Shown here: positions 11,718-27,542 of the stretch, in pieces | Layout: each line of letters opens with the position of its first letter | Numbering within the stretch: the stretch's first letter is position 1 | Virus record (IMG/VR): IMGVR_UViG_3300017697_000060 | Location: 1-31,498 of that record | Origin: a virus | Strand: one strand, 5' to 3' | DNA: 31,498 nt | Position numbers and translations under genes: made by a program | The notes under the pieces: model-generated | The model's database searches: none | What the model was told of the DNA's origin: nothing | The model's input: only the letters and a program-made list of their open reading frames with translations

Positions 11718-11744
11718 TTTAATATATTTACAAAAAACAAACAA

Positions 11745-12389: not shown

Positions 12390-12392
12390 ACA

Positions 12393-12824: not shown

Positions 12825-12827
12825 ATT

Positions 12828-12935
12828 ATGATGGGAAGTATATTATTATTATTTTTATTAGGATGGGCAATTACTATTGCAGCAGTTTGGGTTTGGTTTG
12901 AAGATTACAACAATAGGAAGGACCAAGACCTTTAA
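12828..12935 (+). CDS. Single-pass small membrane protein
   Basis: 35 residues. One strong hydrophobic helix (about residues 4-24, SILLLFLLGWAITIAAVWVW) is followed by a charged tail EDYNNRKDQDL. It ends inside the first element of the putative late promoter at 12932. It could be a membrane-targeted host-takeover peptide; its function is unknown. Confidence 0.5.
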   Translation: MMGSILLLFLLGWAITIAAVWVWFEDYNNRKDQDL

Positions 12936-12962
12936 CATATTGAGTAAAAATTCATTGTATAA
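12932..12962 (+). promoter_or_regulatory. Putative late promoter 1 (before terminase)
   Basis: TTAAC (12932-12936), 17 bases, then ATTGTATAA (12954-12962). It has the same two elements and spacing as the sites at 15476, 23612, 24916 and 27168. By analogy with those, transcription would start near 12965, giving a leader of about 25 bases before the ATG at 12990. Confidence 0.55.
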
Positions 12963-12989
12963 GTAAATCATTAATGAAATTATTTGATT

Positions 12990-13229
12990 ATGGATAAAAG
13001 AAAATTTAACGGTGGAAATAAGAACGCAGGAAGAAAACCTAAATCAGAAGAGGTTGCACTTATTGAAAAACTAACACCACTTGAGCCATTGGCATTTTCT
13101 GCCTTAATGAAGGGTTTAGAAAATGGAGACTTCAAATATGTACAGTTGTTTTATAACTACTATGCAGGTAAACCTAGAGAAACCAAAGACATTACAATAA
13201 ACGAGGACCTACCATTGTTTATAGATTAG
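12990..13229 (+). CDS. Putative terminase small subunit
   Basis: 79 residues from the ATG at 12990; an in-frame TTG at 12984 would add only two residues and is less likely. A basic start with NGGNKNAGRKPK precedes helical stretches around LTPLEPLAFSALMKGLENG and the segment FYNYYAGKPRETKD. This GGxxxNAGRKPK plus YYxGKPxE pattern is seen in small DNA-binding proteins directly before terminase large subunits in flavophages. The next gene begins two bases later. It is short for a complete small terminase, so a minimal DNA-recognition subunit is inferred. Confidence 0.65.
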   Translation: MDKRKFNGGNKNAGRKPKSEEVALIEKLTPLEPLAFSALMKGLENGDFKYVQLFYNYYAGKPRETKDITINEDLPLFID

Positions 13230-13230
13230 T

Positions 13231-14400
13231 ATGCAGGTAAAGAAAACCGAAGCATTAACTAAGTTAAGGAAACTTAATAGTAGAACTAAAATAATACGAG
13301 GAGGAACGAGTGCAGGTAAAACTATCTGCATTCTCCTTGTGTTAATAGATTACGCTATAAGAAATGAGGGTAAAGAAATAAGTGTAGTATCTGAATCAAT
13401 ACCCCATCTGCGTAGAGGTGCTTTTAAAGACTTCTGTGGTATCTTAAAGGGAATGAATAGATATAGGGATAGTCAACTAAATAAGTCTACCTTAAAATAC
13501 ACGTTTACTAATGGTAGTTATATAGAGTTTTTCAGTACAGACCAACCTGATAAACTGCGTGGAGCAAGAAGGACAGACTTATATATTAACGAGTGTAACA
13601 ATATTCCTTTTGATGCCTATCAGCAATTAGTAGTTAGAACGTCTGGGAATATATGGCTAGACTACAATCCATCTGCTTTGTTTTGGGTGGATAGAGAATT
13701 AATAGGAAAAGAAGATACAGATTTTATAACACTTACCTACAAAGATAATGATTCACTTCCCAAAAGTATTGTAACTGAAATAGAGAAAGCTAAAGAGAAA
13801 GCAAAGACCTCAACGTACTGGGCTAATTGGTGGAGAGTCTATGGACTTGGAGAAGTAGGAAGTTTAGAGGGTGCTTGTATTCCTGATTGGAAAGAGATTG
13901 ATACAGTACCAACAGAAGCAAGATTATTAGGTTACGGAATGGACTTTGGTTATAGTGTTGACCCGACAACGTTAATAGCATTATATAAGTGGAACGATTC
14001 TTATATATATGATGAGGTGCTTTATAAGAAGGGAATGCTTAACAGAGATATTAGCAGATTTTTAGAAGAAAACGATATAAGGGAAAGTATAACCGCTGAC
14101 TCAGCAGAACCTAAATCGATAGCAGAATTACAAGGTTACGGACATAATATACACGGGGTAAGTAAAGGAAGGGATTCAGTAGTATATGGAATCAACTTAA
14201 TGAATCAAAACGAGATATATGTTACAAGCCGTTCTAAGAACCTTAAAAGAGAATTAGGTGGTTATATATGGGCAACTGATAAAGAGGGTAACAAAACACA
14301 AAAACCAAGTGGTCTACATCCCGATTGCATTGATGCTGCTAGGTATGTTTTAACAGACCAATTACAGAACCCGAATAAAGGTAAATATTTTATTTATTAA
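13231..14400 (+). CDS. Terminase large subunit
   Basis: 389 residues, close to the normal length of PBSX-type large terminases. The ATPase domain has Walker A GGTSAGKT (residues 24-31), Walker B LYINE (117-121) and DKLRGARRTD (107-116) just before it. The RNase-H-like nuclease domain has acidic residues in MDFGYSVDPT (Asp238), ADSAE (Asp290) and HPDCIDAARY (Asp365, Asp368). The protein cuts concatemeric phage DNA and pumps it into the prohead through the portal (27542). The gene looks intact. Confidence 0.93.
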   Translation: MQVKKTEALTKLRKLNSRTKIIRGGTSAGKTICILLVLIDYAIRNEGKEISVVSESIPHLRRGAFKDFCGILKGMNRYRDSQLNKSTLKYTFTNGSYIEFFSTDQPDKLRGARRTDLYINECNNIPFDAYQQLVVRTSGNIWLDYNPSALFWVDRELIGKEDTDFITLTYKDNDSLPKSIVTEIEKAKEKAKTSTYWANWWRVYGLGEVGSLEGACIPDWKEIDTVPTEARLLGYGMDFGYSVDPTTLIALYKWNDSYIYDEVLYKKGMLNRDISRFLEENDIRESITADSAEPKSIAELQGYGHNIHGVSKGRDSVVYGINLMNQNEIYVTSRSKNLKRELGGYIWATDKEGNKTQKPSGLHPDCIDAARYVLTDQLQNPNKGKYFIY

Positions 14401-14418
14401 TTTTTTGTTAATAAATTG

Positions 14419-14448
14419 TTGGTATATCAAAAATAAGTTTTATATTTG
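14419..14448 (+). promoter_or_regulatory. Bacteroidetes-type housekeeping promoter for the small accessory genes
   Basis: TTG (14419-14421), a 19-base spacer, and a perfect TATATTTG (14441-14448), 19 bases before the ATG at 14468. It would give the small genes at 14468-15408 early, host-driven expression in the middle of otherwise late genes. Confidence 0.7.
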
Positions 14449-14467
14449 AATCAACAAACAAATTATT

Positions 14468-14647
14468 ATGAAGCGTTACAAACAAAATTTAAGAGTAGAA
14501 TCAAATAAGGTTTACAGTTACAATACTCACGTTGCAACTATAAATGGAGTTAACCTTAATCAGTTAGGTTGGTGGAGTGTAACAACTCAAAAACATATTA
14601 ACTATGTAGCAAGTGAACTTGGGTTAAACCTTATAAAAAACAAATAA
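14468..14647 (+). CDS. Small phage protein, DUF8033-like
   Basis: 59 residues. The pattern SYNTHVATINGVNLNQLGWW, followed by SVTTQKHINYVASELG, resembles a small phage family (I believe DUF8033) that often occurs in early regions; function unknown. It is the first gene after the promoter at 14419. Confidence 0.6.
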   Translation: MKRYKQNLRVESNKVYSYNTHVATINGVNLNQLGWWSVTTQKHINYVASELGLNLIKNK

Positions 14648-14648
14648 T

Positions 14649-14870
14649 ATGAGAACTATATTTAAAAACGAGGGTTATTTTCTAGAGTATATGGTTGAAG
14701 GTAATTTTATTGGTAGCACCCGTATAGACGAACCAGACAGGGAAGAGGTAGGCTATTACGGTAGAATAGATGCCATTGCAAACGAGGATATAAAATTAGG
14801 TAAAAAAACAATTAAAAAGGGAACTAAATACTACACTAGAATGTATCCCCTTTGCGGAAAAAAAATTTAA
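14649..14870 (+). CDS. Small hypothetical protein
   Basis: 73 residues, beta-rich in appearance, with a central segment GYYGRIDAIANEDIKLGKK and a C-terminal YTRMYPLCGKKI. It lies one base after the preceding stop and is in the same small operon. No family is recognised. Confidence 0.6.
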   Translation: MRTIFKNEGYFLEYMVEGNFIGSTRIDEPDREEVGYYGRIDAIANEDIKLGKKTIKKGTKYYTRMYPLCGKKI

Positions 14871-14871
14871 T

Positions 14872-15006
14872 ATGAGTTACATAGAAAGAGAATACGATGA
14901 ATATTTAGAAAGACAAGATTTAATTAACGAATGTGCTTTTTGTCTTAAAAGTTGCAAGGAGGAATTTTGCAATCAAGAATGTGAGTTAAATTATGCAATC
15001 AATTAA
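14872..15006 (+). CDS. Small cysteine-rich protein, possible zinc binder
   Basis: 44 residues. An acidic first half (MSYIEREYDEYLERQDLINE) is followed by a cysteine cluster CAFCLKSCKEEFCNQEC with five cysteines, a size and spacing compatible with one zinc site. The start lies one base after the previous stop. It could be a small host-interaction protein; that is speculation. Confidence 0.5.
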   Translation: MSYIEREYDEYLERQDLINECAFCLKSCKEEFCNQECELNYAIN

Positions 15007-15016
15007 AACAATTATT

Positions 15017-15187
15017 ATGAGTGATATTAGAGAAAGTTACGAGTACAAATTAGTAAAGCAATTAACAGCAAAAGAAAACAGAATAAAGGTTAGAAATACT
15101 ATACTTCAGGGTCTTTTATTCTCATTAGTATGCTGTATTTCATTTAATATATTTTTAAAAGTATTTTTATGGGTGTTGACATATTAG
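15017..15187 (+). CDS. Small protein with one C-terminal membrane helix
   Basis: 56 residues from the ATG at 15017. An in-frame ATG at 14993 would overlap the previous gene, whereas the context CAATTATTATG at 15017 is like that of neighbouring starts. The N-terminal half is charged and helical; residues about 34-55 form a strong membrane segment (LLFSLVCCISFNIFLKVFLW). It overlaps the next gene by 19 bases. Confidence 0.5.
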   Translation: MSDIRESYEYKLVKQLTAKENRIKVRNTILQGLLFSLVCCISFNIFLKVFLWVLTY

Positions 15188-15408
15188 AAACTTGGCAGAT
15201 ATATAAGGCTTGTTGGAATAAGAAGTTCTATGTAATACAAAAACCTATGGGGGTTGGAATCAAAAAAGGTGGGTACGATGTACAATTAATAATGGATATG
15301 CAAGGGCAATTAGTATTAGGTAAAGATTCTTACAAACAGAATAGCCAAGAGTTAGAAGATAAGATTACAGAGATGTACACTTATATGTACAAAAGATTTA
15401 TAGAGTAA
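15169..15408 (+). CDS. Small hypothetical protein
   Basis: 79 residues starting MGVDILETWQIYKACWNKKF, with a Gly-rich central turn GVGIKKGGYDVQLIMDMQG and a helical C-terminus. It is the last gene of the small operon before a terminator. No family is recognised. Confidence 0.55.
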   Translation: MGVDILETWQIYKACWNKKFYVIQKPMGVGIKKGGYDVQLIMDMQGQLVLGKDSYKQNSQELEDKITEMYTYMYKRFIE

Positions 15409-15428
15409 GTTTAGATTAAGTTTAGATT
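15407..15428 (+). repeat. Two tandem copies of an 11-base repeat
   Basis: AAGTTTAGATT occurs twice in a row (15407-15417 and 15418-15428), starting in the stop codon of the preceding gene and lying just before a terminator. It may be a protein-binding site or simple slippage. Confidence 0.6.
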
Positions 15429-15442
15429 AATTTTGTTTTTGA

Positions 15443-15472
15443 AAGGGTTGCAGAGATGTAGCCCTTTTTTTG
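15443..15472 (+). terminator. Intrinsic terminator before the tail operon
   Basis: AAGGGTTGCA (15443-15452), a GAGA loop, TGTAGCCCTT (15457-15466) and a T tract to 15471. The 10-base-pair stem has two G-U pairs and a GNRA tetraloop. The right arm is identical to that of the terminator at 4547. Confidence 0.87.
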
Positions 15473-15475
15473 TAT

Positions 15476-15508
15476 TATACAATTAACTGTTTTATTCATT
15501 GTATATAT
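15476..15508 (+). promoter_or_regulatory. Putative late promoter 2 (tail operon), leaderless
   Basis: TATAC (15476-15480), 17 bases, ATTGTATATAT (15498-15508), then the ATG at 15509. The downstream element and the 11-base distance to ATG equal those at 23612, 24916 and 27168; the upstream element is the weakest of the five. It directly follows the terminator at 15443. Confidence 0.55.
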
Positions 15509-16165
15509 ATGAAGATTGAAATAAGCGTACCATCAAAACTTAGTGAAATAACACTAGAGAAATATCAGAAGTTTGCTAAACTAAATACAGAGCAAAACGA
15601 AGATAGCAGTTTTATGATGCACAAGACGGTAGAGATATTTTGTGGTCTTGAATTAAAAGACATAGCAAAGATAAAATACAAATACGTTAAAGACATTTTA
15701 AGCGACTTAGATAAACTATTTTCAGTTAAACACAACCTAATACCAACGTTTAAATTGAATGGCTTAGAATACGGATTTATACCAGTTCTTGACGATATGA
15801 GTTTAGGAGAGTATATTGACTTAGACGAAAACTTTTCAGATTGGGATAAGATGCACAAAGCAATGAGTGTATTATACAGACCAATAACGTTAAAAAAAGA
15901 TAATAGGTATCAGATAGAAGAATACAAGGGATTAAATGAAGACCTAAAGAAAATGCCTTTAAATGTTGTAATGGGTTCTATGGTTTTTTTTTGGAATTTA
16001 AACAACGAATTAATGACAACTACCCTGAATTATTTGAAGCGGGAAGCGAACAACAGTCTGACTATTCAGCAAGTGCAGGATTTGGGAAAAAGTGGGGTTT
16101 CTATCAGTCAGTCTATGGAATTGCTAAAGGAGATGTTACCAAGTTTAACACCGTTACAAAACTAA
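15509..16165 (+). CDS. Tail assembly chaperone (gpG-like), zero-frame product
   Basis: 218 residues from ATG at 15509; upstream in-frame TTG codons lie in the terminator/promoter region and are unlikely starts. The protein begins MKIEISVPSKLSEITLEKYQ and contains MSLGEYIDLDENFSDWDKM and ALYRPI-like segments, similar to tail-chaperone-like proteins of Bacteroidetes siphophages. Codons 159-161 run through a nine-T tract, where a -1 shift would produce the longer protein ending at 16245. In lambda-like phages the pair gpG/gpGT recruits the tube protein to the tape measure. After the slip site the zero frame continues for 57 protein-like residues. Confidence 0.7.
   Translation: MKIEISVPSKLSEITLEKYQKFAKLNTEQNEDSSFMMHKTVEIFCGLELKDIAKIKYKYVKDILSDLDKLFSVKHNLIPTFKLNGLEYGFIPVLDDMSLGEYIDLDENFSDWDKMHKAMSVLYRPITLKKDNRYQIEEYKGLNEDLKKMPLNVVMGSMVFFWNLNNELMTTTLNYLKREANNSLTIQQVQDLGKSGVSISQSMELLKEMLPSLTPLQN
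15985..15992 (+). promoter_or_regulatory. Predicted -1 programmed frameshift site
   Basis: Nine T residues occupy 15984-15992. In the zero frame the codons are GTT TTT TTT TGG, so the heptamer T TTT TTT (15985-15991) lets both tRNAs slip back one base and re-pair perfectly. The -1 frame is then open as TTG GAA TTT AAA to 16245. I did not verify a downstream stimulatory structure. Confidence 0.7.
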
Positions 16166-16245
16166 ACGTTCACGAGTGCTTATTGTTTTTAGCATTTGAA
16201 AAAGAAAAAAACCAAATAGAAGCAAAACTAATAAAACAAAGATGA
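15991..16245 (+). CDS. -1 frame extension of the tail chaperone (gpT-like part of gpGT)
   Basis: 84 codons reached by -1 frameshifting; fused to the first 161 residues they give a predicted protein of 245. The extension contains FGKKWGFYQSVYGIAKGDVT, then LNVHECLLFLAFEKEKNQIE, a pattern typical of the T-domain of Bacteroidetes tail chaperones (aromatic WGxY motif, then a helix ending FLAFEKE). It has no ATG of its own near its beginning, which supports expression as a fusion. It shares 175 bases with the zero frame. Its stop overlaps the next ATG (ATGA). Confidence 0.72.
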   Translation: MEFKQRINDNYPELFEAGSEQQSDYSASAGFGKKWGFYQSVYGIAKGDVTKFNTVTKLNVHECLLFLAFEKEKNQIEAKLIKQR

Positions 16246-16697
16246 CAGGATTTTACAATTTAACAGACAAAATAAAAGACACTTTAAATGCAGAGCCTTT
16301 TGTCAATACAGTTTCTTACGGTAGTCTTGATGATGTAGATTTAAACAAACAAACTATATTTCCTTTATCTCATATCATTGTAAATAACTGCAATGTTTCT
16401 AATAACGTAATGACTTTTAACATTAGTGTGTTAGCTATGGATATTGTAGATGAAAGTAAAGAAGAGGTTACAGATGTTTTTGTAGGAAACGATAATGAAC
16501 AAGATGTTTTAAATACACAACTAGAGGTTATCAATAGACTGGTAAACCTTTTAAAGCGTGGAGACCTATATACAGATAAGTTTCAAGTAGATGGAGAAGT
16601 AGGATGTGAACCATTTGTAGATAGATTCGAAAACAAGTTAGCAGGATGGGCAGCTACGTTTGATGTAACAGTACAAAACGATATGACTGTATGCTAA
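16242..16697 (+). CDS. Putative tail terminator/completion protein
   Basis: 151 residues. It is mixed alpha/beta and ends ENKLAGWAATFDVTVQNDMT, a C-terminal strand pattern (GWxxxFxVxV) that I associate with tail terminator or minor tail proteins of flavophages. It overlaps the upstream frameshift extension by four bases and the next gene by seven. It most likely sits at the head-proximal end of the tail; the precise role is inferred. Confidence 0.5.
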   Translation: MTGFYNLTDKIKDTLNAEPFVNTVSYGSLDDVDLNKQTIFPLSHIIVNNCNVSNNVMTFNISVLAMDIVDESKEEVTDVFVGNDNEQDVLNTQLEVINRLVNLLKRGDLYTDKFQVDGEVGCEPFVDRFENKLAGWAATFDVTVQNDMTVC

Positions 16698-17209
16698 CAA
16701 AGGGCAAAACATATGAAGCCTTAAATGTATTTAAGAAGTTTGTAATACAACAATCAAGAAGCAGACTTACTAAAAGCAAAAAGAACTATTCAAAGAGTCT
16801 ATACGATTCTATACAGGGTAATATTGATGTAGGTGCTAATTCTTTTAGTTTAACATTTTTAATGGAGGACTATGGAAAGTTCCAAGACCAAGGAGTTAGT
16901 GGAACAGAAAAGAAATATAAAACACCATTCTCTTATAGGACAAAAATGCCACCTATTAAACCACTAGCAGAATGGGCAAAGTCAAAAGGTATAAGATTAA
17001 GAGATGACAAAGGAAAGTTTAAAAAAGGTAACTACAACACTATAGGTTTTTTAATATCAAGAAGCATATTCAGAAAAGGTATTAAACCATCTTTGTTTTT
17101 TACTAAACCATTTGAACAAGGATTTAAGAAACTACCAGATGAATTAATAAAAGCATACGGATTAGATGTTGAAGAATTTTTAAAATATACAATTAAACAA
17201 CAAAGATAA
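16691..17209 (+). CDS. HK97 gp10-like tail completion/neck protein
   Basis: 172 residues, strongly basic. The motif MEDYGKFQDQGVSGTEKKY (residues 58-76) resembles the YgxfxExGtxg motif of HK97-gp10-like head-tail joining proteins, followed by a basic loop and a C-terminal helix. It lies between the putative tail terminator and the tail structural genes, which fits a neck or tail-completion role. The last base is shared with the next start. Confidence 0.55.
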   Translation: MLTKGKTYEALNVFKKFVIQQSRSRLTKSKKNYSKSLYDSIQGNIDVGANSFSLTFLMEDYGKFQDQGVSGTEKKYKTPFSYRTKMPPIKPLAEWAKSKGIRLRDDKGKFKKGNYNTIGFLISRSIFRKGIKPSLFFTKPFEQGFKKLPDELIKAYGLDVEEFLKYTIKQQR

Positions 17210-18702
17210 TGAGTACAAAAATAAATGTAAGAAGTCCTTTTTATTTAAACCTTACAGAACCAGTTCAAACGCTAGGATTGTTTACCTGTTCTACAGCAGG
17301 ATTATCTAACTTTTCTGTAAATAGTTCTGGTTTAATAACAAACCCTTTACTATTAAAAGGTAATATAATAGGTCAAACAGAAACTCAATTTTCTGCAAAT
17401 ACAAGTGGTAGTCCAATATCAAGAAGTGTTACCTATACAATATCTATTCCTGCAGGATATACTAATACAAATGAATCTACAATAGATTGTGTTCAAACAT
17501 TTGAACAACCTACACAAACACCACAAGAAGACCCAGCGTCTAATGATAACTGTCCTACCTTTTCGGGTACGATTCCAGACTCTACTGGTTCTAGTGCAAC
17601 TGTAACACTATCTACTTATTTTACTTCGGGAGCAGATGCAGATATAAGTTCTTATGAGATTTTACATACACCAGTAGGTACATCAATACAAACTGTCTTG
17701 TCAGGTACAGCACCTAACCAAACTTTAACTATTTCTAGTAGTACAGATTGTGATACAGTTGATTTAGTTGTAAGAGCGTTTAACGGTTCTGATTCTTGTA
17801 CTGCAATATCAAACACTTTTAGCCATTCAACAGGTAATTGTGTAGCTTATGATTGTAACGATGCAAATGTAACAGGTGGTAATATAGAACAAGATGGAAC
17901 TGTACACAAAGGCACTTGGACACTAGGAACTTTAAATGCAGTAATATATAACGCAACTGATATAACAACCTCTTTAAATGTAGGTGCAAATAATACAGGG
18001 TCAGCCGTAAATAAAACAATTACATATAGATTTAATATTCCTAACGGTTACAGCAATACAGGTACTTTTGATTGTGATGTAGTTTATTCACAACCTGCTG
18101 CTATTGTAGTTCCAACATTTTCTTGTTCAGATATACAGCCAAGTGGAGGGTTTATTTCAGAATCTGGAAACATAGCACCACCAACATTAGGTTCAGGTAC
18201 ATTAGTAAGCTGGACACCACAACAATTTGCACAAGTATCTGTTAATACTCCAAGGTCAATTTATTTAACGGTAACACCACCTGCATCTGGTTATACTAAT
18301 TCGGGTGGGGCTGACATAACAAATTGCGAATATATTTTAACACAACCTGCAACGTTTTTAGATTGTGGTAACACTTCATTTTACTTTGCAAATACAGGAT
18401 TTGATAGACCAGAGGATTTTTGTAAAAATGGAATTACCACAAGTTACGGTTCTATATTACAGGCTTTAAGTAACGTATCCTCTTTTGAAGACTTAAAAAC
18501 TACAGTAGGTAATACTTTTTGTTATAGACTATCTGGTTTTAATGGACGTAATAAATATTATGTTTTTTCCGAAACACCTGCCTTTGTGAGTAATCAAAAT
18601 AATTTCTATTTATTAAAGATAGATGACTACGGTACTGTACAAGAAGTTGTTTTGTGGAATTGTTCGGGAGGTGCAGATGGTTCTGGAGGTAGAGTAGCAT
18701 AA
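17209..18702 (+). CDS. Large Ig-like repeat virion protein
   Basis: 497 residues, rich in Ser, Thr, Asn and Gly and almost devoid of charged helices. Three related units (about residues 24-100, 214-296 and 303-388) share a Cys near the start, a G.ITNP/GNIEQ-type turn, an IP.GYTNT or IPNGYSNT hairpin and a closing DC....Y.QPA. Between units 1 and 2 lies a different beta domain (about 108-212). The C-terminal 110 residues form a separate Cys-containing domain. Such proteins decorate tails or build tail-tip appendages; exact location is unknown. Confidence 0.6.
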   Translation: MSTKINVRSPFYLNLTEPVQTLGLFTCSTAGLSNFSVNSSGLITNPLLLKGNIIGQTETQFSANTSGSPISRSVTYTISIPAGYTNTNESTIDCVQTFEQPTQTPQEDPASNDNCPTFSGTIPDSTGSSATVTLSTYFTSGADADISSYEILHTPVGTSIQTVLSGTAPNQTLTISSSTDCDTVDLVVRAFNGSDSCTAISNTFSHSTGNCVAYDCNDANVTGGNIEQDGTVHKGTWTLGTLNAVIYNATDITTSLNVGANNTGSAVNKTITYRFNIPNGYSNTGTFDCDVVYSQPAAIVVPTFSCSDIQPSGGFISESGNIAPPTLGSGTLVSWTPQQFAQVSVNTPRSIYLTVTPPASGYTNSGGADITNCEYILTQPATFLDCGNTSFYFANTGFDRPEDFCKNGITTSYGSILQALSNVSSFEDLKTTVGNTFCYRLSGFNGRNKYYVFSETPAFVSNQNNFYLLKIDDYGTVQEVVLWNCSGGADGSGGRVA

Positions 18703-18717
18703 TAAAAAAAATAAAAA

Positions 18718-19707
18718 ATGGCACTAAAAAAAATAGGTTTAAAGTTATATGTATATAATGGAATTGTAGGTTCTTATACTTCTTCTGATTTAAAATATCA
18801 AATTGAAAAGGATAGGATTTCAAGTCAAGATAATATAGTAGTTGAGATTTCTCAATTAATAAAAGACTATATAGTAAATGATTTTAACAATGATTATTCC
18901 TGTAATGCTAAATGGGTTTCAGTAGTTGTAGATTATTACGATGAAGATACAGGTGCAATATATGAAAGCAATGGAACGCAAATATTTAATTATTTATCGT
19001 TTGATGGCTATGGACATTTTGAAGAAGAAATAAATCCACAGTTAAGTACTAACTTACTACAAACTTCTGATAATATATATTTACCCGAAGATGTTACAGG
19101 TAAACTACCAATATTCGCAGAGGGAGTTGGGAAAGTAACAATAGACTCAACAGATACACAAATAACAGATAACGGTAATAGTAATCAAAAAATTCAATAT
19201 ATATCTATTCCTGCTAATAGTGATACTATCACGGTTTATGATACAGATGACACTACTTTACTAAGAACTGTTAAAGTAAATAATATATGTGAGCCTAAAT
19301 TTACTCCGTATAAAGTTACCTTTGTAAATAAACTTGGAGCATATCAAGATATATATTTCTTTAAGAAAACTACCGAAAGTTTTGACGTAACAGATAAGAC
19401 CTACAAAAGAAATAACATACAGACCTCAACAGTTACCTATTCAACAAACAGCGGTCAAAGACAACGTTATAACATAAACGGTAAAACTAAAATTACTTTA
19501 AATACTGGTTATGTAAAAGAAGATTTCAATAGTGCATTAGAAGAACTATTCCTATCAGAAAACGCTTGGATTAGATGGGAGGGTAAAACATTACCTGTTA
19601 TCATTACGAGTAAAAATATGACACTTAAAACGGTTTTAAATGATAAGTTGATAGATTATACAATAGGTTTTGAATTTGCTTTTAACAAGATAAACAATGT
19701 ACGTTAA
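18718..19707 (+). CDS. Virion structural protein, probable tail-tip/baseplate component
   Basis: 329 residues, beta-rich. The central segment KFTPYKVTFVNKLGAYQDIY (about residues 197-216) followed by FFKK recurs, as I recall, in tail proteins of Bacteroidetes siphophages, where it precedes a protein like the one at 19707. No enzyme motif is seen. One base overlaps the next gene. It is possibly the distal tail protein; that is inference from order. Confidence 0.5.
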   Translation: MALKKIGLKLYVYNGIVGSYTSSDLKYQIEKDRISSQDNIVVEISQLIKDYIVNDFNNDYSCNAKWVSVVVDYYDEDTGAIYESNGTQIFNYLSFDGYGHFEEEINPQLSTNLLQTSDNIYLPEDVTGKLPIFAEGVGKVTIDSTDTQITDNGNSNQKIQYISIPANSDTITVYDTDDTTLLRTVKVNNICEPKFTPYKVTFVNKLGAYQDIYFFKKTTESFDVTDKTYKRNNIQTSTVTYSTNSGQRQRYNINGKTKITLNTGYVKEDFNSALEELFLSENAWIRWEGKTLPVIITSKNMTLKTVLNDKLIDYTIGFEFAFNKINNVR

Positions 19708-21893
19708 TGATTGCATTACAATTATATATAGAGGGTCAAGAAGTAGAGTTACACGATAACGAAAGCGTTGTACTTAAACAAAGCATACAAGATGTTAAAA
19801 GTTTGGATAAGGTATTTACAGACTTTACTAGAACATTTAACGTACCTGCTTCAACTGTAAACAACAAACTGTTTAAACATTTCTATAATTTTAATATAAA
19901 AGGGTTTGATGCAAGACATAAACAAGATGCTACACTAACGATAAACTACAAACCATTTAAAACTGGTAAGATAAAGTTAGAAGGAGTACAGATGCAGGAT
20001 AACAGACCTGTAAATTATAGAATAACATTCTACGGTAGCTTAGTATCATTAAAAGATATATTTGGAACTGATAAAATTAGCTCATTAAATCCATTAAGTT
20101 TAAGTATTGACTATTCAGCAATAAACATTTCTAACTTATTACAAAACGGACAAGACTATAGTGTAAATGGAGAAAACATTTTAGATGCCTTTATAGTGCC
20201 TTTAATTACTCACACCGATAGATTATATTACAATAGTTCTGAAGATGTAGCAGGGACGTTTAATTTAAGCCCTACAAGTACATCAAAAGGAGTTGTATAT
20301 AACCAATTAAAACCAGCTGTAAAAGTTTACGCTATTATAAGAGCTATCGAGTTTAAATATGGTATTAAGTTTAGCAATGACTTTTTTAGTTTAGATAACG
20401 ATGCAATTAAGGATTTATATCTTTGGTTACACAAAAAGAAAGGTGGGATATTTGATGAAGAAGCAAGAAACACAATACAGGTAAATAACTGGACTAATAT
20501 CATAAGAACTAACGGAGGTTTAGATACAGGTTCTTTTACTAACGATAGTTTTAAAAATACTTCTATTCCTTTTGATGCAAATAGATATTTATCACTTGAA
20601 GTAGCTACTACTGATTCAGATGCAGAATACGAGGTGGTTATTTATTATGATGATGAAATAATACATAGTTCTGAACATACAGGACAAGATTATATTTTAA
20701 GGTGGAGTGATGGATTTAAACTACAAACACCGAATAGGAATCAAGAATCTACAAGCATATCTTCTGACAAGGTAAGTGTAAAATTATTAAGTTCTTCTTC
20801 TTCTACATTCACAGTCAAAATGAGTGTAAAAGATTCTTATGCAGATGGTAATTATAGAATGATTGAAGCGTTTGCAGAAAATGTAAATACTTCAACTCCC
20901 AAAGTAATTGCAACTAATGAGATGCCAGACATAACTGTTATGAATTTCTTAATGGGTTTATTTAAGATGTTTAATCTTACTGCATATTTTGAAGAAGGAG
21001 TTATTAAGGTTCTTCCATTAGATGACTTTTACAGTAGTAGTACATCTACTTACGATATTACAGAATATTTAGATAAATCTGATTCAGAAGTAAATTCAGC
21101 CTTACCATTTAGTTCAATAAATTTTAGTTACAATGAAGCAAAAAGTTTCTTTGCAGCAAATCATAAACAACAATTTAATCAAGAATGGGGTTCTTTAAAA
21201 TACACTAATTTAGGTTCTGCACAGGGTTCTACTTATGATGTAAAATTACCGTTTGAGAATCAAAAATTTGAAAGAATAAAAGATAGTGGTTCTAATTTAT
21301 TTACTACTGTACAATGGGGTTATAGTGTAGATATTAAACAGGACCCGTATATAGGTAAACCATTATTATTTTACGCAATGCGTGAAGATGATAGTGTAGG
21401 AGTTTTAAATCCAATATCTTTTTTAGATGGAGTTGGTGGAAATCAATCTACATTAAACGCTTATTATATACCAAGTAATTCAGCAGACCCTTTAACGGAC
21501 AGTAAAACCTTAAATTTTGGTTCTGAAAAGAATGAGTATTTAAGAACTAATGCAGATAAATCTTTATTTGATACCTACTATAAAAATTACATAGTAGATA
21601 CTTTTTCAGAAAACAGAAGGATTAGTAAGTTTAAAGCATACCTACCTTTAAAAGTGATTTCAAATTTAAAGCTACAAGATAGGATTATTGTATTTAATAA
21701 TTTATATAAAATAAATACTATAAGTACAAACTTTGAAAATGGACTTTCTTCTTTAGAATTAATTAATGAGGTTAGTGAGTTTACAGTTTCTGCAGTAGCA
21801 AACCAAAAAGATGAAGCACGAACTATTGATAATTCAACTGTTACTGCTGACACTACCGAAGTAAGGGCAGATAACGGATTACAAAGAATATAA
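19707..21893 (+). CDS. Large tail-tip/baseplate structural protein
   Basis: 728 residues. The N-terminus has VFTDFTRTFNVPASTVNNKL (residues 37-56), then FYNFNIKGFDARHKQDATL and a lysine-rich GKIKLEGV segment, which I recognise from large flavophage tail proteins. The middle is beta-rich with Ser-rich loops; the C-terminus ends in a Thr/Asp-rich stretch. It is probably the Tal-like tail-tip protein. Its location before, rather than after, the tape measure differs from the usual siphovirus order. Confidence 0.5.
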   Translation: MIALQLYIEGQEVELHDNESVVLKQSIQDVKSLDKVFTDFTRTFNVPASTVNNKLFKHFYNFNIKGFDARHKQDATLTINYKPFKTGKIKLEGVQMQDNRPVNYRITFYGSLVSLKDIFGTDKISSLNPLSLSIDYSAINISNLLQNGQDYSVNGENILDAFIVPLITHTDRLYYNSSEDVAGTFNLSPTSTSKGVVYNQLKPAVKVYAIIRAIEFKYGIKFSNDFFSLDNDAIKDLYLWLHKKKGGIFDEEARNTIQVNNWTNIIRTNGGLDTGSFTNDSFKNTSIPFDANRYLSLEVATTDSDAEYEVVIYYDDEIIHSSEHTGQDYILRWSDGFKLQTPNRNQESTSISSDKVSVKLLSSSSSTFTVKMSVKDSYADGNYRMIEAFAENVNTSTPKVIATNEMPDITVMNFLMGLFKMFNLTAYFEEGVIKVLPLDDFYSSSTSTYDITEYLDKSDSEVNSALPFSSINFSYNEAKSFFAANHKQQFNQEWGSLKYTNLGSAQGSTYDVKLPFENQKFERIKDSGSNLFTTVQWGYSVDIKQDPYIGKPLLFYAMREDDSVGVLNPISFLDGVGGNQSTLNAYYIPSNSADPLTDSKTLNFGSEKNEYLRTNADKSLFDTYYKNYIVDTFSENRRISKFKAYLPLKVISNLKLQDRIIVFNNLYKINTISTNFENGLSSLELINEVSEFTVSAVANQKDEARTIDNSTVTADTTEVRADNGLQRI

Positions 21894-21899
21894 AAACGT

Positions 21900-22049
21900 A
21901 TGATTGAAAATATAATACAAATGTTAGAGATAGCAAAAAGAGAAAAAGAGATAGGAGAACTTACTCATATAGCATTAGGTAAAAACAAACTACCTGAAAC
22001 ATTTAAAGAGGGTTATAAAATATTAAAACTAGAATTATGCCGATTATAA
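21900..22049 (+). CDS. Small helical protein overlapping the tape-measure start
   Basis: 49 residues: an N-terminal amphipathic helix (MIENIIQMLEIAKREKEIGE), then a Leu/Lys-rich C-terminus. Its last 13 bases overlap the tape-measure gene, suggesting translational coupling. No family is recognised. Confidence 0.55.
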   Translation: MIENIIQMLEIAKREKEIGELTHIALGKNKLPETFKEGYKILKLELCRL

Positions 22050-23611
22050 AAGAAGTTGTTGTAGAAGTAAATGCAAACGCTGCAAAGAAAGACTTAGAAT
22101 CACTAGACAAGGGTTTACAAAATGTAGATGAAGGAGTTAAAGATATTGGGGAAACGTCAAAAGAAACTAAAAAAGAGATTAGTGCATTTGGCGGTGCAAT
22201 GGATAAACTAACTGGTGGTGGTTATACAGGTTTAATGAATATGGTTAAGGCTATTAAAACTGGTAATATCAGTTTGAAAGCTATGAAAACTGCATTAATT
22301 GCTACTGGTATTGGTGCTTTCGTTGTTGCTGTAGGAACTTTAGCCGCAAACTTTAATAATAGTGAAGAAGGAGCAAATAAATTAAATAAAATACTTTCTC
22401 AAATTGGAGTTGTTGCTGGGAATGTTACTGATATAATTTACAGTTTAAGTCAAAGTGTATTTTCTTTATTAACTGGTAATCTTGAAGATGCAGCTAAATC
22501 TTTTGAAGAAGCTACAAACCGAATGAAAAACTTCGGAGAAGAAACCAAAAAAGAAATAGCACTACAAGGAGAACTAGCTGACAAACAAGCTGAGTTAACT
22601 AAAATAGAAAGACAGTTAACTGTAGAAAGAGCAGAAGCAAATAGAAAAAGAGCTGACCTTTTGGAAAAGGCTGCAGATAGAGAAACATATACAGCTACAC
22701 AACGAATAGAATTTTTAAAAGAAGCAGGAAGATTAGAAGAAGAAATAACAGACAAAGAAATTGAAGCTGCAAAACTAAGACTCGAAATAAAAGAACAATC
22801 AAACACGTTAAGTGAAAGTTCATCAGAGGACCTGGCAGAAGAAGCAAATTTAAAAGCAGAGTTAATTAACCTAGACACTCAAAGACTAACGAAACAAAAA
22901 GAAGTAACAAGTCAAATAATTGGTGCTATAAATGAAGAAAAGGCTGCAAGTAAAGCATTAGCAGACCAAAGAAAAGCAGAAATTAATGAGTTTCAATCAC
23001 AAAGGGAGTCTTTAGATAAAATATTAAGCAATAGTTTAGGTAAACAAGAACAAGCTACTATAAAGACTATTGATGTAACATCTGCTTTAAAAACCGAACA
23101 GGCTAAAAAAGAAATAAAAACAGACAAATTAACTTCAGACCAAAAGTTAGATTTAGCTTCTAGTACTTTAGGAAGTATCTCTGGGCTTCTTGGAGAAAGT
23201 AGTGATGCAGGTAAAGCAGCAGCTGTAGCACAGGCAACAATAGAAACCTACAAAGGTGCTCAATCTGCGTTTAGTTCATTGGCTGGTATTCCGATTGTTG
23301 GTCCTGCATTAGGTGCTATAGCAGCAGCCTCAGCAATTAGCTCTGGTATTGCAACAGTAAAACAAATTACGTCTACTAAAACACCAGGCGGAAAAGGTGG
23401 AGGTGGTTCTAGTATTTCTGCACCAAGTAGAGTAGTATCTTCGCCTGTACCACCGTCTTTTAATGTTGTTGGAGCATCTGAAACAAACCAATTAGCACAA
23501 TCTATAGGACAAGAAGAAAAACAACCTGTAAAAGCCTTTGTAGTAACAAACGAAGTAAGCAATGCACAAGCATTAGAAAGAAATATAGTGGAATCGGCTT
23601 CTATAGGATAA
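22037..23611 (+). CDS. Tail tape-measure protein
   Basis: 524 residues. The order is an N-terminal helical part, a hydrophobic segment LIATGIGAFVVAVGTLAANF (about residues 87-106), a long coiled coil (about 165-335, rich in E, K, A and Q), and an Ala/Gly-rich hydrophobic stretch GIPIVGPALGAIAAASAISS (about 417-436) followed by a GGKGGGGS linker. This is the usual architecture of Bacteroidetes tape measures. At the known rule of roughly 1.5 Angstrom per residue it would set a tail near 80 nm. The chaperone pair at 15509 is its expected partner. Confidence 0.82.
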   Translation: MPIIKEVVVEVNANAAKKDLESLDKGLQNVDEGVKDIGETSKETKKEISAFGGAMDKLTGGGYTGLMNMVKAIKTGNISLKAMKTALIATGIGAFVVAVGTLAANFNNSEEGANKLNKILSQIGVVAGNVTDIIYSLSQSVFSLLTGNLEDAAKSFEEATNRMKNFGEETKKEIALQGELADKQAELTKIERQLTVERAEANRKRADLLEKAADRETYTATQRIEFLKEAGRLEEEITDKEIEAAKLRLEIKEQSNTLSESSSEDLAEEANLKAELINLDTQRLTKQKEVTSQIIGAINEEKAASKALADQRKAEINEFQSQRESLDKILSNSLGKQEQATIKTIDVTSALKTEQAKKEIKTDKLTSDQKLDLASSTLGSISGLLGESSDAGKAAAVAQATIETYKGAQSAFSSLAGIPIVGPALGAIAAASAISSGIATVKQITSTKTPGGKGGGGSSISAPSRVVSSPVPPSFNVVGASETNQLAQSIGQEEKQPVKAFVVTNEVSNAQALERNIVESASIG

Positions 23612-23644
23612 TTAACAAAAACACTAAAAAAGTATTGTATTAAT
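23612..23644 (+). promoter_or_regulatory. Putative late promoter 3 (head operon), leaderless
   Basis: TTAAC (23612-23616) begins on the base after the tape-measure stop; after 17 bases comes ATTGTATTAAT (23634-23644), then the ATG at 23645. Spacing from the A of ATTG to ATG is 11 bases, as at three other sites. Confidence 0.58.
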
Positions 23645-24562
23645 ATGGATATAATAGAATTATTTATAGATGAAAACGATGACGTTTCTGGAATAGAAGC
23701 AGTATCGATAGTAGAAAATCCAGCAATCGAAGAAGACTTTGTTGCATTAAAAACTGAACAAGTTAAATTTGCAGAAGTGAACAAAGAAAAGCGTATTCTT
23801 ATGGGTGCTGCTCTAGTTCCTAATAAACCTATTTACAGACGTAATGAAGATAAAGAATATTATATCTATTTCTCAAAAGATACTGTAAGGAAAGCATCTG
23901 AATTATTTTTTATACGTGGTAATCAAAACAACTCAACATTAGAACACAATGTACCTTTAACTGGTTTAAGTGCAGTTGAAAGTTGGATAGTAGAGGACAA
24001 AGAAAATGACAAGTCTAATTTTTACGGTTTAGATTTACCTGTAGGAACTTGGATGTTATCAATGAAAGTTTTAAATGACGATGTTTGGAACGATTACGTT
24101 AAAACAGGAAAAGTAAAAGGATTTAGTATTGAAGGCTACTTTGCAGATAAATTAGAAAGACCTAATGAGTCTAACGAATTATCTAAAATAGAAGAAGAAG
24201 AAGGACAGTACATAACACAGCAACTTACAGCAATTTTAAACGGAGAAGATTACGATTTAGAAAGTTATTCAGATTATCCAGACTCAGTTAAAAACAATGC
24301 TAAACGTGGTATTGAATTAAATGAAAAAGTAGACAATAAATGTGCTACACAAGTTGGAAAAATAAGAGCACAACAATTAGCAAAAGGAAAACCAATAACA
24401 GTAGAAACCATTAAAAGAATGTTTAGCTATTTAAGTAGAGCAGAGGTTTATTACGAAAAAGGAGATACTGAAAGTTGTGGATATATATCTTATTTACTAT
24501 GGGGTGGTAAAAGTGCTAAATCTTGGGCTGAATCAAAACTAAAAAGTTTAGAGAATGAGTAA
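23645..24562 (+). CDS. XkdF-like prohead protease with extra C-terminal domain
   Basis: 305 residues. The N-terminal 175 residues fit the XkdF-like putative serine protease family: NSTLEHNVPLTG (His101) and VKGFSIEGYF (Ser161) supply the likely catalytic pair. A second domain (about 207-305) contains YPDSVKNNAKRGIELNE, a CATQVGKIRAQQLAKG segment and SYLSRAEVYYEKGDTESCGY, a module I have seen attached to several phage head proteins, without known function. The protease would cleave scaffold and capsid during maturation. It overlaps the next gene by eight bases. Confidence 0.75.
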   Translation: MDIIELFIDENDDVSGIEAVSIVENPAIEEDFVALKTEQVKFAEVNKEKRILMGAALVPNKPIYRRNEDKEYYIYFSKDTVRKASELFFIRGNQNNSTLEHNVPLTGLSAVESWIVEDKENDKSNFYGLDLPVGTWMLSMKVLNDDVWNDYVKTGKVKGFSIEGYFADKLERPNESNELSKIEEEEGQYITQQLTAILNGEDYDLESYSDYPDSVKNNAKRGIELNEKVDNKCATQVGKIRAQQLAKGKPITVETIKRMFSYLSRAEVYYEKGDTESCGYISYLLWGGKSAKSWAESKLKSLENE

Positions 24563-24911
24563 AATACCAAGCCCACAAAATAACAAACGTGCCTGTTTAT
24601 GTAAAAATGGAAAGTATTCACGGAAATGTTGTGATGGTAGCTTTCAAGCACAAGGAATAGGAAGTATTACAAAAGAGATTTTAACTGGAGTTTGGTATGG
24701 ATATAACGTTACAGCTTGTTCTAACCAACATACACATCACGTTCATATACACGACACCCAATTAACTGTAGGTAAAACGTATTATTTAAGATTAGAAAAT
24801 AATCACAACGAGTGTTATACTATTGATAGTACTTCACACGCAGAAGGAATACACGTTAATAGTGCATCAGTACAATACGATGACTGTGCAGATTGTGAAT
24901 CAGCAAACTAA
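24555..24911 (+). CDS. Cysteine/histidine-rich virion-associated protein
   Basis: 118 residues. The N-terminus has CLCKNGKYSRKCCDGSFQAQ (residues 14-33), a cysteine pattern seen, as I recall, in proteins beside capsid genes of Bacteroidetes phages. The centre has HTHHVHIHDTQ, which could bind metal, and the C-terminus DDCADCES has two more cysteines. The rest is beta-rich. It may be a capsid decoration or metal-stabilised spike protein; inference only. Confidence 0.55.
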   Translation: MSKIPSPQNNKRACLCKNGKYSRKCCDGSFQAQGIGSITKEILTGVWYGYNVTACSNQHTHHVHIHDTQLTVGKTYYLRLENNHNECYTIDSTSHAEGIHVNSASVQYDDCADCESAN

Positions 24912-24915
24912 AAAT

Positions 24916-24948
24916 GTAACAAAACTATAAATAATTAATTATATATAT
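24916..24948 (+). promoter_or_regulatory. Putative late promoter 4 (scaffold/capsid), leaderless
   Basis: GTAAC (24916-24920), 17 bases, ATTATATATAT (24938-24948), then the ATG at 24949. It precedes the scaffold and major capsid genes, which need the highest late expression. Confidence 0.58.
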
Positions 24949-25533
24949 ATGAAAGCGACAGAAATTTTAAACAAAGCAAAAGAACTACTTTCGATTGAAT
25001 CGGAAGAGGTTCAATTAGCACAGGCTACTTTAGAGAATGGAACTGTTATCGAGGCGGACGAGTTTGCTGAAGGTAAAGAAGTATTTATTGTAACTGAAGA
25101 TGAGCGTGTAGCACTACCAGTAGGAGACTATAAATTAGAAGATGGTCAAGTACTTGTTGTAGAAGAAGAAGGAATCATTGCATCTATTGGAGCAGAAGAA
25201 GAAGCACCAGCAGAAGAAGCATCTGTAGAGGAAGAAGTAGAAGCAGCCGAAGAAGAAAAAGAAGAAATGGCTTACGCTACTAAAGAAGACCTTGCAGAGG
25301 TTAAATCTATGATTGATGAAATCAAAGCAATGATTGACAAGAAAGATGAATTATCAGTTGAAGAAACTGTGGAAAATATTGTTGAGGAGGTAAAGGAAGA
25401 ACTTTCAGAAGTTGAAAAAGTAAACCACAACCCCGAAGCGGAAGCGAATAAAGAACTAAATCTTTACGCTCAAAAAAGAAGTGCAACTACATTAGATAGA
25501 GTACTAGCAAAAATGAATAAATTTAATAAATAA
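24949..25533 (+). CDS. Acidic scaffolding protein
   Basis: 194 residues. An N-terminal helix (about 1-25) is followed by a small beta domain with LENGTVIEADEFAEGKEVFI and LPVGDYKLEDGQVLVV, then a Glu/Ala-rich region (about 83-106) and a coiled coil (about 108-158). It ends in a basic helix RVLAKMNKFNK, the usual capsid-binding tail of scaffolds. Position directly before the major capsid gene supports the call. It is probably removed by the protease at 23645. Confidence 0.72.
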   Translation: MKATEILNKAKELLSIESEEVQLAQATLENGTVIEADEFAEGKEVFIVTEDERVALPVGDYKLEDGQVLVVEEEGIIASIGAEEEAPAEEASVEEEVEAAEEEKEEMAYATKEDLAEVKSMIDEIKAMIDKKDELSVEETVENIVEEVKEELSEVEKVNHNPEAEANKELNLYAQKRSATTLDRVLAKMNKFNK

Positions 25534-25538
25534 TAAAA

Positions 25539-26489
25539 ATGGCAACAACTACAAGTATAACTACGACTTACGCTGGAGAATCAGCAGGTCAAATCATTTC
25601 AGCTGCTTTATTAAGCGGTAACACTATTGAAAATGGTGGGATTACAGTAAAACCAAATGTAAAATTTAAAGAAGTAATTAAGAAATTATCTACTGATGCA
25701 ATCGTTAAAGATGCAGGATGTGATTTCGACCCGACTTCTACAATTACTTTGGTAGAGCGTATTCTTGAGCCAGAATTTCAACAAGTAAACTTACAACTTT
25801 GTAAGAAAGACTTTGTTTCTGACTGGGAGGCAATGACTATGGGATTATCTGCTCATCACGATTTACCACCAGCACTAGCTGATTACTTAATTGCACACGT
25901 ATCTGCAAAAGTAGCACAAAAAACAGAGCAATCTATTTGGGGTGGAGATACTGCAACTAACGGACAATTTAACGGTTTAACAACTTTACTAGCTTTAGAT
26001 GCAGGTTTACCAGCAGCACAAGAAATTGCAGGAGCAACTGTAACAGCTTCTAACGTAATTGCTGAACTAGGAAAAATCGTTGATGCTATTCCTTCTACAC
26101 TTTACGGAAGCGAAGATTTACATATTTATGTATCTCAAAACATCTACCGTGCTTATTCAAGAGCATTAGGAGGATTCGGAGCATCTGGTTTAGGAGCTAA
26201 CGGTTACGATGGAAAAGGAACTAACCAAGATATTTCTCCAGTTTACTTTGATGGAGTAAAATTATTTATGGCTAACGGACTTGCAGACAATACTGCAGTA
26301 GCGGCTGAAAAATCTAACATCTTCTTTGGAACAGGTTTATTATCTGACCAAAACGAAGTAAAGGTTTTAGATATGGCTGACCTTGATGGTTCTGACAATG
26401 TACGTATCGTAATGAGATTCTCTGCAGGAGTACAGTACGGAGTTGTAGAAGATATCGTAACTTACGGTATTACTAACTCTGCAAACTAA
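25539..26489 (+). CDS. Major capsid protein, HK97 fold
   Basis: 316 residues. The N-arm is Thr/Ser-rich, followed by VKPNVKFKEVIKKLSTDAIV, a CDFDPTSTITLVERILEPEF strand pair and the segment TEQSIWGGDTATNGQFNGL (about 129-147), a pattern common to HK97-like capsid proteins of flavophages. The A-domain includes LHIYVSQNIYRAYSRAL. Codon use looks more uniform (frequent GCA, GGA, TCT), consistent with high expression, although I did not compute this. A strong terminator follows. Confidence 0.8.
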   Translation: MATTTSITTTYAGESAGQIISAALLSGNTIENGGITVKPNVKFKEVIKKLSTDAIVKDAGCDFDPTSTITLVERILEPEFQQVNLQLCKKDFVSDWEAMTMGLSAHHDLPPALADYLIAHVSAKVAQKTEQSIWGGDTATNGQFNGLTTLLALDAGLPAAQEIAGATVTASNVIAELGKIVDAIPSTLYGSEDLHIYVSQNIYRAYSRALGGFGASGLGANGYDGKGTNQDISPVYFDGVKLFMANGLADNTAVAAEKSNIFFGTGLLSDQNEVKVLDMADLDGSDNVRIVMRFSAGVQYGVVEDIVTYGITNSAN

Positions 26490-26507
26490 GAATAATAATT
26501 AATCTTA

Positions 26508-26546
26508 AAGGGGTGGGTAAGCCAATGTGCCTATCCACCCTTTTTT
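26508..26546 (+). terminator. Intrinsic terminator after the major capsid gene
   Basis: AAGGGGTGGGTAAG (from 26508) pairs with CTATCCACCCTT (26531-26542), with G-U pairs and a bulge, ending in six T residues (26541-26546). No promoter-like element is visible between it and the next gene, so partial read-through is expected. Confidence 0.75.
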
Positions 26547-26560
26547 AATACAAAAAAACT

Positions 26561-27109
26561 ATGGCTTGTGATTTAACTAGAGGTAGAAAAGAACCTTGCA
26601 AAGATGTAGTTGGTGGTTTAAAAGCGGTTTATTTTACAGACTTTGGAGACTTAGGAACTGTAACCAAAACGGACGACCAAATTACAGACCTTTCAGGAAC
26701 TTTTACTGCTTATAAATATGAATTAAAAGGTGGTTCTTCATTTGAACAATCTATAACAAGTTCTCGTGAAAACGGAACTACTTACTTTGAGCAAACTTTA
26801 AATTTAACTTTAAAGAAACTATCAAAAGAAGATAACAAAGAAATTAAGTTATTAGCTTATGGCAGACCGCACATTGCAGTTGAGGACTATAACGGAAACG
26901 TTTTCGTAATGGGACTAGAACACGGTGCAGAAGTAACTGGTGGAACTATTGTTACAGGTGGAGCAATGGCTGACCTATCTGGATATACATTGACATTTAG
27001 TGCTTCTGAATTGCAACCTGCAAACTTTGTAGATGCACCAACAGCAGCTGACCCTTACGCTGGTATGGGTAGTGCTACTGTAACAGTAACAGAAGGTTCT
27101 AATTCTTAA
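26561..27109 (+). CDS. Probable major tail (tube) protein
   Basis: 182 residues. The start MACDLTRGRKEPCKDVVGGL and the later LKGGSSFEQSITSSRENGTT, with a C-terminal SGYTLTFSASELQPANF, are familiar to me from flavophage major tail proteins. Alternating strands suit the tube-protein beta-sandwich. It lies between two terminators directly after the capsid gene, which allows separate dosage control. A capsid decoration role is the alternative. Confidence 0.6.
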   Translation: MACDLTRGRKEPCKDVVGGLKAVYFTDFGDLGTVTKTDDQITDLSGTFTAYKYELKGGSSFEQSITSSRENGTTYFEQTLNLTLKKLSKEDNKEIKLLAYGRPHIAVEDYNGNVFVMGLEHGAEVTGGTIVTGGAMADLSGYTLTFSASELQPANFVDAPTAADPYAGMGSATVTVTEGSNS

Positions 27110-27130
27110 TAGAAATATTACTTTATAATT

Positions 27131-27156
27131 AAGGGGGCTTTATTGCCCCTTTTTTT
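27131..27156 (+). terminator. Intrinsic terminator after the tube-like gene
   Basis: AAGGGGGC (27131-27138), a 6-base loop, GCCCCTTT (27145-27152) and T residues to 27156. It is followed 11 bases later by putative late promoter 5. Confidence 0.88.
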
Positions 27157-27167
27157 ATGCTTTGTAT

Positions 27168-27200
27168 TTAACAAAACAAAAGTTTTTTTATTGTATATAT
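27168..27200 (+). promoter_or_regulatory. Putative late promoter 5 (portal operon), leaderless
   Basis: TTAAC (27168-27172), 17 bases, ATTGTATATAT (27190-27200), then the ATG at 27201. The 14-base block ATTGTATATATATG is identical to that at 15498-15511. Confidence 0.6.
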
Positions 27201-27542
27201 ATGATTATACTACAAAAAATAGATAGCAATCAAACTTTTAGTTTTATACCACGTTCTTATATAAACGGAACTACATATACGGTTATAATTAAAAACGAAA
27301 CAACAAACAAGGAAGTGTATAATGATACTACTACTTCTTTTGCAGAGGTAGATTATTATTATCAATATACAGACACGTTTACACTACTAGAAGATACAAC
27401 TTACAACCTTGAAATTAAAGAGGGAAATAATGTTATTTTTAAAGATAAAATATTTTGTACTAATCAAACGGTTTCTGCTTATAGCGTAAATAATACGGAA
27501 TATACAGAGCATAACCAAGACAATGAATTTATAGTATTATAA
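27201..27542 (+). CDS. Small beta-rich virion protein before the portal
   Basis: 113 residues from ATG at 27201; an in-frame upstream TTG at 27162 lies before the promoter and is rejected. The sequence is beta-rich with many Thr, Asn and Tyr (for example YTVIIKNETTNKEVYND), like an Ig-like or carbohydrate-binding sandwich. Its stop overlaps the portal start by one base. The function is unknown; a neck or decoration protein is plausible. Confidence 0.6.
   Translation: MIILQKIDSNQTFSFIPRSYINGTTYTVIIKNETTNKEVYNDTTTSFAEVDYYYQYTDTFTLLEDTTYNLEIKEGNNVIFKDKIFCTNQTVSAYSVNNTEYTEHNQDNEFIVL

Follow-up and report, generated by a model that had tools for sequence, protein, structure and literature searches.

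Five copies of a two-part motif in the window

The window analysed here is the whole of a 31,498-nucleotide (nt) stretch, positions 1 to 31,498 of IMG/VR virus record IMGVR_UViG_3300017697_000060, from a virus of Bacteroidota whose host is probably marine. We consider a two-part motif that recurs between 12932 and 27196, and a phage gene for a sigma factor that may read it. A preliminary description of the sequence had reported TTAAC, GTAAC or TATAC, a fixed gap of 17 bases and then ATTRTAT at 12932, 15476, 23612, 24916 and 27168, and all five copies were verified at these positions. Treated as the -35 and -10 elements of candidate late promoters, they are as follows.

12932..12960, plus strand: candidate late promoter 1, TTAAC-N17-ATTGTAT, before a small-terminase-like gene and the large terminase; leader of about 29 nt
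15476..15504, plus strand: candidate late promoter 2, the TATAC variant, ahead of the tail block; ATG at 15509, 4 nt past the -10
23612..23640, plus strand: candidate late promoter 3, TTAAC, ahead of the gene for the head maturation protease; 4 nt to the ATG
24916..24944, plus strand: candidate late promoter 4, GTAAC, before scaffold-like and probable major capsid genes; 4 nt to the ATG
27168..27196, plus strand: candidate late promoter 5, TTAAC, before the 27201 gene and the portal gene; 4 nt to the ATG

The -10 half is ATTGTAT in four copies and ATTATAT in that at 24916, and 17 bases separate the halves in all five; at each of the remaining spacings between 5 and 30 the window has 0 or 1 match. 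The full pattern has five plus-strand matches against a mean of 0.107 (maximum 2) in 1000 dinucleotide shuffles of one strand, and the strict form DTAAC-N17-ATTRTAT has four against 0.2 expected, a number attained in 0 of 100 shuffles. A matrix trained only on relatives with a TAAC-type -35, the window being excluded, ranked four of the five copies as the top four sites on both strands of the window (30.1 bits for promoter 5, 28.1 for promoter 3, 22.3 for promoter 4 and 13.8 for promoter 1), with the next site at 7.3 bits. The fifth copy, with TATAC at 15476, was missed by this TAAC-trained matrix, yet lies at a conserved orthologous position. The earlier observation that positions 1-12900 lack the motif was borne out, there being no matrix match of at least 12 bits in that region.

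The sole minus-strand match in the window, at 15505, is the 15476 copy again: this copy forms an inverted repeat (TATACAAT..ATTGTATA) and so matches in both directions. Promoter 2 (15476-15505) is peculiar both in this symmetry and in its TAC -35 variant, which is preserved before the tail block in other clades (as ATAC or similar), and these features suggest a tuned or differently timed tail promoter.

Several further features bear on the five copies.

15441..15468, plus strand: terminator-like hairpin immediately 5′ of promoter 2
27131..27152, plus strand: terminator-like hairpin immediately 5′ of promoter 5
29841..29868, plus strand: TCTT-N17-ATTATAT 5′ of the 29873 gene, probably a sixth site in degenerate form; the motif is intact here in many relatives
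4575..4606, plus strand: host-type promoter-like sequence TTG-N21-TATATTTG, a consensus match only, 5′ of the early/middle block with the sigma gene
14419..14448, plus strand: host-type promoter-like sequence TTG-N19-TATATTTG, a consensus match only

The two hairpins agree with the earlier statement that two copies directly follow intrinsic terminators. At 29841-29868 the -10-like ATTATAT is kept, and the -35 is missing in the window. The host-type TTG/TAnnTTTG sites at 4575 and 14419 are both present and, as had been proposed, distinct from the motif, neither half of which they match. Presumably the same core RNA polymerase serves both kinds of promoter, but the five copies themselves were rejected as promoters of the Bacteroidota primary sigma factor, since the -10 region of each lacks TAnnTTTG on the coding strand. 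Late promoters of phage T4 have only a -10-type element (TATAAATA) and require a clamp and a co-activator. A promoter of that type, with no -35, was excluded by the presence of two elements with a fixed 17-base spacer, the window motif having a clear -35.

Spacing, strand and placement in related phages

Relatives of the window were retrieved from IMG/VR with the portal protein (80 loci) and with the sigma protein (27 loci), and core-motif counts were made over all loci retrieved by then (1.07 Mb). Rather than being equally frequent on the minus strand, the core [ATG]TAAC-N17-ATTRTAT has 110 matches on the coding strand and 0 on the opposite strand. When the gap was varied from 8 to 26, TAAC-N(n)-ATTRTAT gave 112 plus-strand matches at n = 17 and at most five on that strand at any other n. 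The consensus from 73 distinct sites is WTAACAAA-N14-ATTGTATAwATATG.

Placement was compared in clade A, comprising the window and nine related contigs (ten in all), at a matrix threshold of at least 12 bits. All matches in these ten contigs lie on the coding strand and nearly all precede the same late orthologues, namely the small-terminase-like, tail, protease, scaffold, portal-operon and 29873 genes, with a few matches left unassigned; a site orthologous to promoter 1 is found in seven of the nine related contigs. The least biased test used only loci retrieved by the portal protein, and looked for AAC/TAC-N17-ATTRT in the 45 bases 5′ of each gene. Among distinct upstream regions of these relatives, the motif was present before the portal operon in 42 of 42, the protease in 20 of 21, the scaffold gene in 33 of 38 and the 29873 gene in 8 of 17, while the same test of other genes gave 0/33 for the capsid gene, 0/45 for the 26561 gene, 0/44 for the 29291 gene and 2/39 for the 30093 gene. 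IMG/VR was also scanned blind, with the long motif followed by ATG as the pattern; among the matches listed, 113 of 115 sites in newly retrieved loci precede homologues of window late genes, and 112 of those 113 sites, again among the matches listed, stand at residue 1 of the homologue. The motif scan over the window and its relatives, which the preliminary description had suggested, thus upholds both the fixed spacing and the position of the copies before terminase, tail, protease, scaffold/capsid and portal genes, in the window and in orthologous loci. The motif is placed only before packaging and structural operons, and always in coding orientation.

A pattern chosen by eye in AT-rich DNA could be a product of chance or of hindsight, and a loose search of the window allowing three mismatches was indeed uninformative (357 matches against 359 expected). 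The shuffles, the 110:0 strand bias, the specificity for one spacing and the orthologous placement in loci retrieved without selection for the motif leave this explanation with almost no credibility. The motif could instead be an operator, where a phage regulator, either repressor or activator, binds to control promoters of the host sigma factor. Copy 2 is an inverted repeat, as many operators are, and bipartite motifs can be dimer sites. However, the other copies and the relatives have an asymmetric consensus, the orientation always follows the coding strand at a nearly constant distance from the start codon, and the TAnnTTTG box expected of a host-sigma promoter is in none of the copies. We consider an operator very unlikely.

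The relation to the start codon is itself informative. In four of the five window copies the -10 ends 4 nt before an ATG, and in the window's clade the ATG lies exactly 4 nt past the -10 in 130 of 197 distinct sites; about 10-30 nt separate the two in the remaining sites and in a divergent clade with the -10 ATTWATAAA. Where the -10 ends 4 nt before the ATG, we expect the transcript to begin on the start codon or a few bases away from it, so that leaderless or nearly leaderless mRNAs are predicted. In Flavobacterium psychrophilum leaderless mRNAs make up only 5.5% of the total (PMC9723704).

The same geometry might be read as a Kozak-like signal for translation initiation, given that the ATG usually follows the 3′ half after 4 nt and that Bacteroidota genes lack Shine-Dalgarno sites. 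We regard this as highly improbable: the first half lies some 30 nt upstream across an invariant spacer, genes internal to operons are entirely without the motif, and the many sites with gaps of 10-30 nt argue that the element is a signal for transcription rather than translation.

Diverged -10 elements and the phage sigma factor

From clade to clade the AAC-type -35 and the 17-base spacer persist while the -10 varies (ATTGTATA, ATTWATAAA, GTTATTATA, CGTTAATA). Unguided two-block expectation maximisation (EM) was too noisy in AT-rich DNA, and we therefore relied on orthologous gaps and fixed-spacing counts for these clades. AAC-N17 is found in orthologous gaps with the -10 ATTWATAAA or ATTATTAAA in contigs G017-G019 and G023-G025, with GTTATTATA in G021 and G022, and with GTTAT(A/T) in G020. 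The portal proteins of these divergent contigs are about 50-58% identical to that of the window and their sigma proteins about 44-55%. The ATTWATAAA group has 16 distinct plus-strand sites at the 17-base spacing against at most four at others. When the clade-A -35 was loosened to A[AT]AC with only ATTGTA as the -10, the signal was gone.

The isolates Nonlabens phage P12024S and P12024L (Inhavirus), whose portal protein is 37% identical to that of the window, resemble it in having homologous portal, capsid, protease and sigma genes and AAC-N17 followed by a -10 before late genes, 4-5 nt from the ATG. They differ in that the -10 is CGTTAATA, and the promoters are unannotated in their records. 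Each has seven AAAC-N17-CGTTA sites, one of them with N16; in P12024S these lie 4-5 nt before the annotated starts of gp01, 05, 08, 35, 41, 44 and 45, and two-block EM on its upstream regions recovered AACAAA-N14-CGTTAATA. A further match, AAAC-N17-CGTTAGT at 35522 of P12024S, is followed by no gene start and was taken as chance. The short form AAAC-N17-CGTTA also has two matches in Flavobacterium phage Fpv5, in whose records no sigma is annotated, and the clade-A core is absent from that phage.

The arrangement of the protease and scaffold genes also distinguishes the isolate. In the window (23645-25533) they are separate, each with its own candidate late promoter, whereas in P12024S (179-1228) they are fused as gp01 under one promoter; phrog_24921 covers both. 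Either a gene split accompanied by promoter gain or the reverse could account for the difference.

A candidate reader of the motif is encoded in the window, in the block upstream of the five copies.

6830..7378, plus strand: two-domain sigma factor of 182 amino acids, resembling those of the extracytoplasmic function (ECF) type; probable reader of the motif

The open reading frame matches phrog_1740 (E 2.5e-10), Pfam PF04542 for sigma region 2 (Sigma70_r2; 25.5 bits against a cut-off of 24) and NCBIfam TIGR02937 (49.0 bits against 42.9). By sequence, region 4 falls below the cut-off of Pfam Sigma70_r4_2 (11.4 against 25.7 bits), and the protein falls short of the Bacteroidota subfamily model TIGR02985 (42.8 against 126.4 bits). 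A search of its sequence against PDB chains gave no significant match, so a comparison of folds was needed. The predicted structure has helical blocks at residues 6-78 and 100-175, joined by a low-confidence linker at 78-98; only regions 2 and 4 are present in the model, regions 1.1 and 3 being absent, in a protein shorter than about 200 amino acids. Its top Foldseek matches are ECF sigma factors. The region 4 domain superposes on 2h27_D (E. coli sigma-E region 4 with -35 DNA) with Z 9.3 and a root-mean-square deviation (rmsd) of 2.1 Å over 69 residues, and the region 2 domain on 4lup_A (region 2 with -10 DNA) with Z 8.8 and rmsd 3.3 Å over 79 residues. By sequence and model the protein thus belongs to an ECF-like fold class, and it is predicted to bind core polymerase and to initiate transcription.

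Seven of the related clade-A contigs span the locus of the gene, and each has it, between helicase and exonuclease genes; G009 and G010, which show no sigma, do not reach the locus and were left out of this count. A tblastn search of isolate phages with the window sigma found nothing, and P12024S gp33, annotated with Sigma-70 region 2, was linked to it as a homologue by profile comparison (E 1.2e-9). In G022 and G021 (loci L128 and L129) the sigma match was reported with one internal TAA; the ATG used lies downstream of this codon, which is probably just 5′ of the gene.

ECF promoters combine an AAC-containing -35 with a CGT-type -10, about 16-17 bases apart. The window motif shares the AAC and the fixed spacer with them, and P12024S has in addition an ECF-like CGTT -10. 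The sigma itself has the small two-domain form, with regions 2 and 4, of ECF (group IV) sigma factors such as E. coli sigma-E and B. subtilis SigW. It differs from these in being phage-encoded and apparently dedicated to late genes, and in that the -10, ATTGTATA, departs from the classical CGTC type. We recognised no anti-sigma gene adjoining the sigma gene.

The late promoters might instead be read by an ECF sigma factor of the host, the phage protein having another purpose. Flavobacteria have several such factors, and in F. psychrophilum one class of ECF-type promoters has a CGT -10 box (PMC9723704) that resembles the CGTTA of P12024S. The window -10, ATTGTATA, however, has no CGT box, the phage sigma is conserved together with the motif, and phage clades with different sigmas also differ in the -10. 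A scan of 257 Gb of prokaryote genomes for the long motif followed by ATG gave eight matches, none of them in Bacteroidota records, and weighs little here because host promoters need not lie 4 nt from an ATG; the eight, being scattered and outside Bacteroidota, were taken as background. A host factor as the reader seems to us unlikely.

A probable late-gene switch, neighbouring genes and known systems

The fixed spacing, the complete strand bias and the placement before orthologous late genes are best explained if the five copies are phage late promoters, and we think it likely that they are, probably read by host RNA polymerase carrying the phage ECF-like sigma. The promoter would consist of a -35 TAAC (extended TAACAAA), the fixed 17-base spacer and the -10 ATTGTATA. 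In the scheme that we infer from the sequence, host polymerase would transcribe the early/middle block, including the sigma gene, from host-type promoters; the phage sigma would then redirect that polymerase to the late operons, namely those for terminase, tail, protease, scaffold/capsid and portal, where in four of the five copies transcription would start at or a few bases from the ATG and give leaderless or nearly leaderless mRNAs. The late-promoter reading of the preliminary description is therefore supported, although it had overlooked the sigma gene at 6830-7378, the near-leaderless geometry and the diverged versions with the same spacing in other clades, the isolates P12024S and P12024L among them.

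Some points count against this interpretation. The match between sigma and promoter is its weakest link, resting on co-occurrence and on the ECF-like AAC of the -35. TIGR02937 is a general model of the sigma-70 superfamily (PMC9429907), and the structure model is of moderate confidence (predicted local distance difference test, pLDDT, 74.6; predicted template modelling score, pTM, 0.43), so that only its single domains are informative. Many of the sites compared are related by descent, and their independence comes mainly from the different genes and clades that share one spacing; clades C and D amount to three genomes with few sites.

Other genes of the window deserve brief mention. A TET/JBP oxygenase (PF12851, 97.9 bits) adjoins a TET-associated glycosyltransferase (PF20691, 56.4 bits) at 10065-11717, a pair whose domains suggest that cytosines of the phage DNA are probably hypermodified; P12024L has the same pair and a methyltransferase (gp26-gp28), and P12024S has other genes there. 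A Peptidase M15 domain at 2962-3315 (PF08291, 62.4 bits) marks a probable endolysin, and 4122-4517 encodes a recombination protein resembling NinG (PF05766, 46.9 bits). One LamG/DUF7483 tail-fibre-like gene is cut by the start of the contig (1-514) and a second, very similar to it, by the end (31190-31498); the two are probably tandem paralogues where the assembly was interrupted.

Phage-encoded sigma factors for middle and late genes are known, among them T4 gp55 and SPO1 gp28 and gp34 (PMC9429907), and the window protein would share with them the role of redirecting host RNA polymerase to such genes. In the literature searched, which left most subscription journals outside so that earlier work may exist, we found no ECF-type late sigma of a phage, no late promoter of a Bacteroidota phage, and no combination of such a sigma with a defined two-part late promoter of mostly leaderless geometry in phages of Bacteroidota.

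Sigma and promoter code together offer a testable late-gene switch for widespread, mostly uncultured phages of Bacteroidota, and the motif allows operons and late genes to be called from sequence in many genomes. We see about an even chance that a large phage lineage of this kind runs its late programme with an ECF-type phage sigma, from virion operons that are mostly leaderless, and that sigma and -10 have diverged together while -35 and spacing stayed fixed. The naturally diverged pairs of sigma and promoter lend themselves to the study of how -10 specificity evolves in ECF-type sigma factors. Should the leaderless geometry prove real, the majority of virion operons would open with a type of mRNA that forms only a small minority in F. 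psychrophilum, a host of this phylum that has been studied, and late transcription would be linked to translation.

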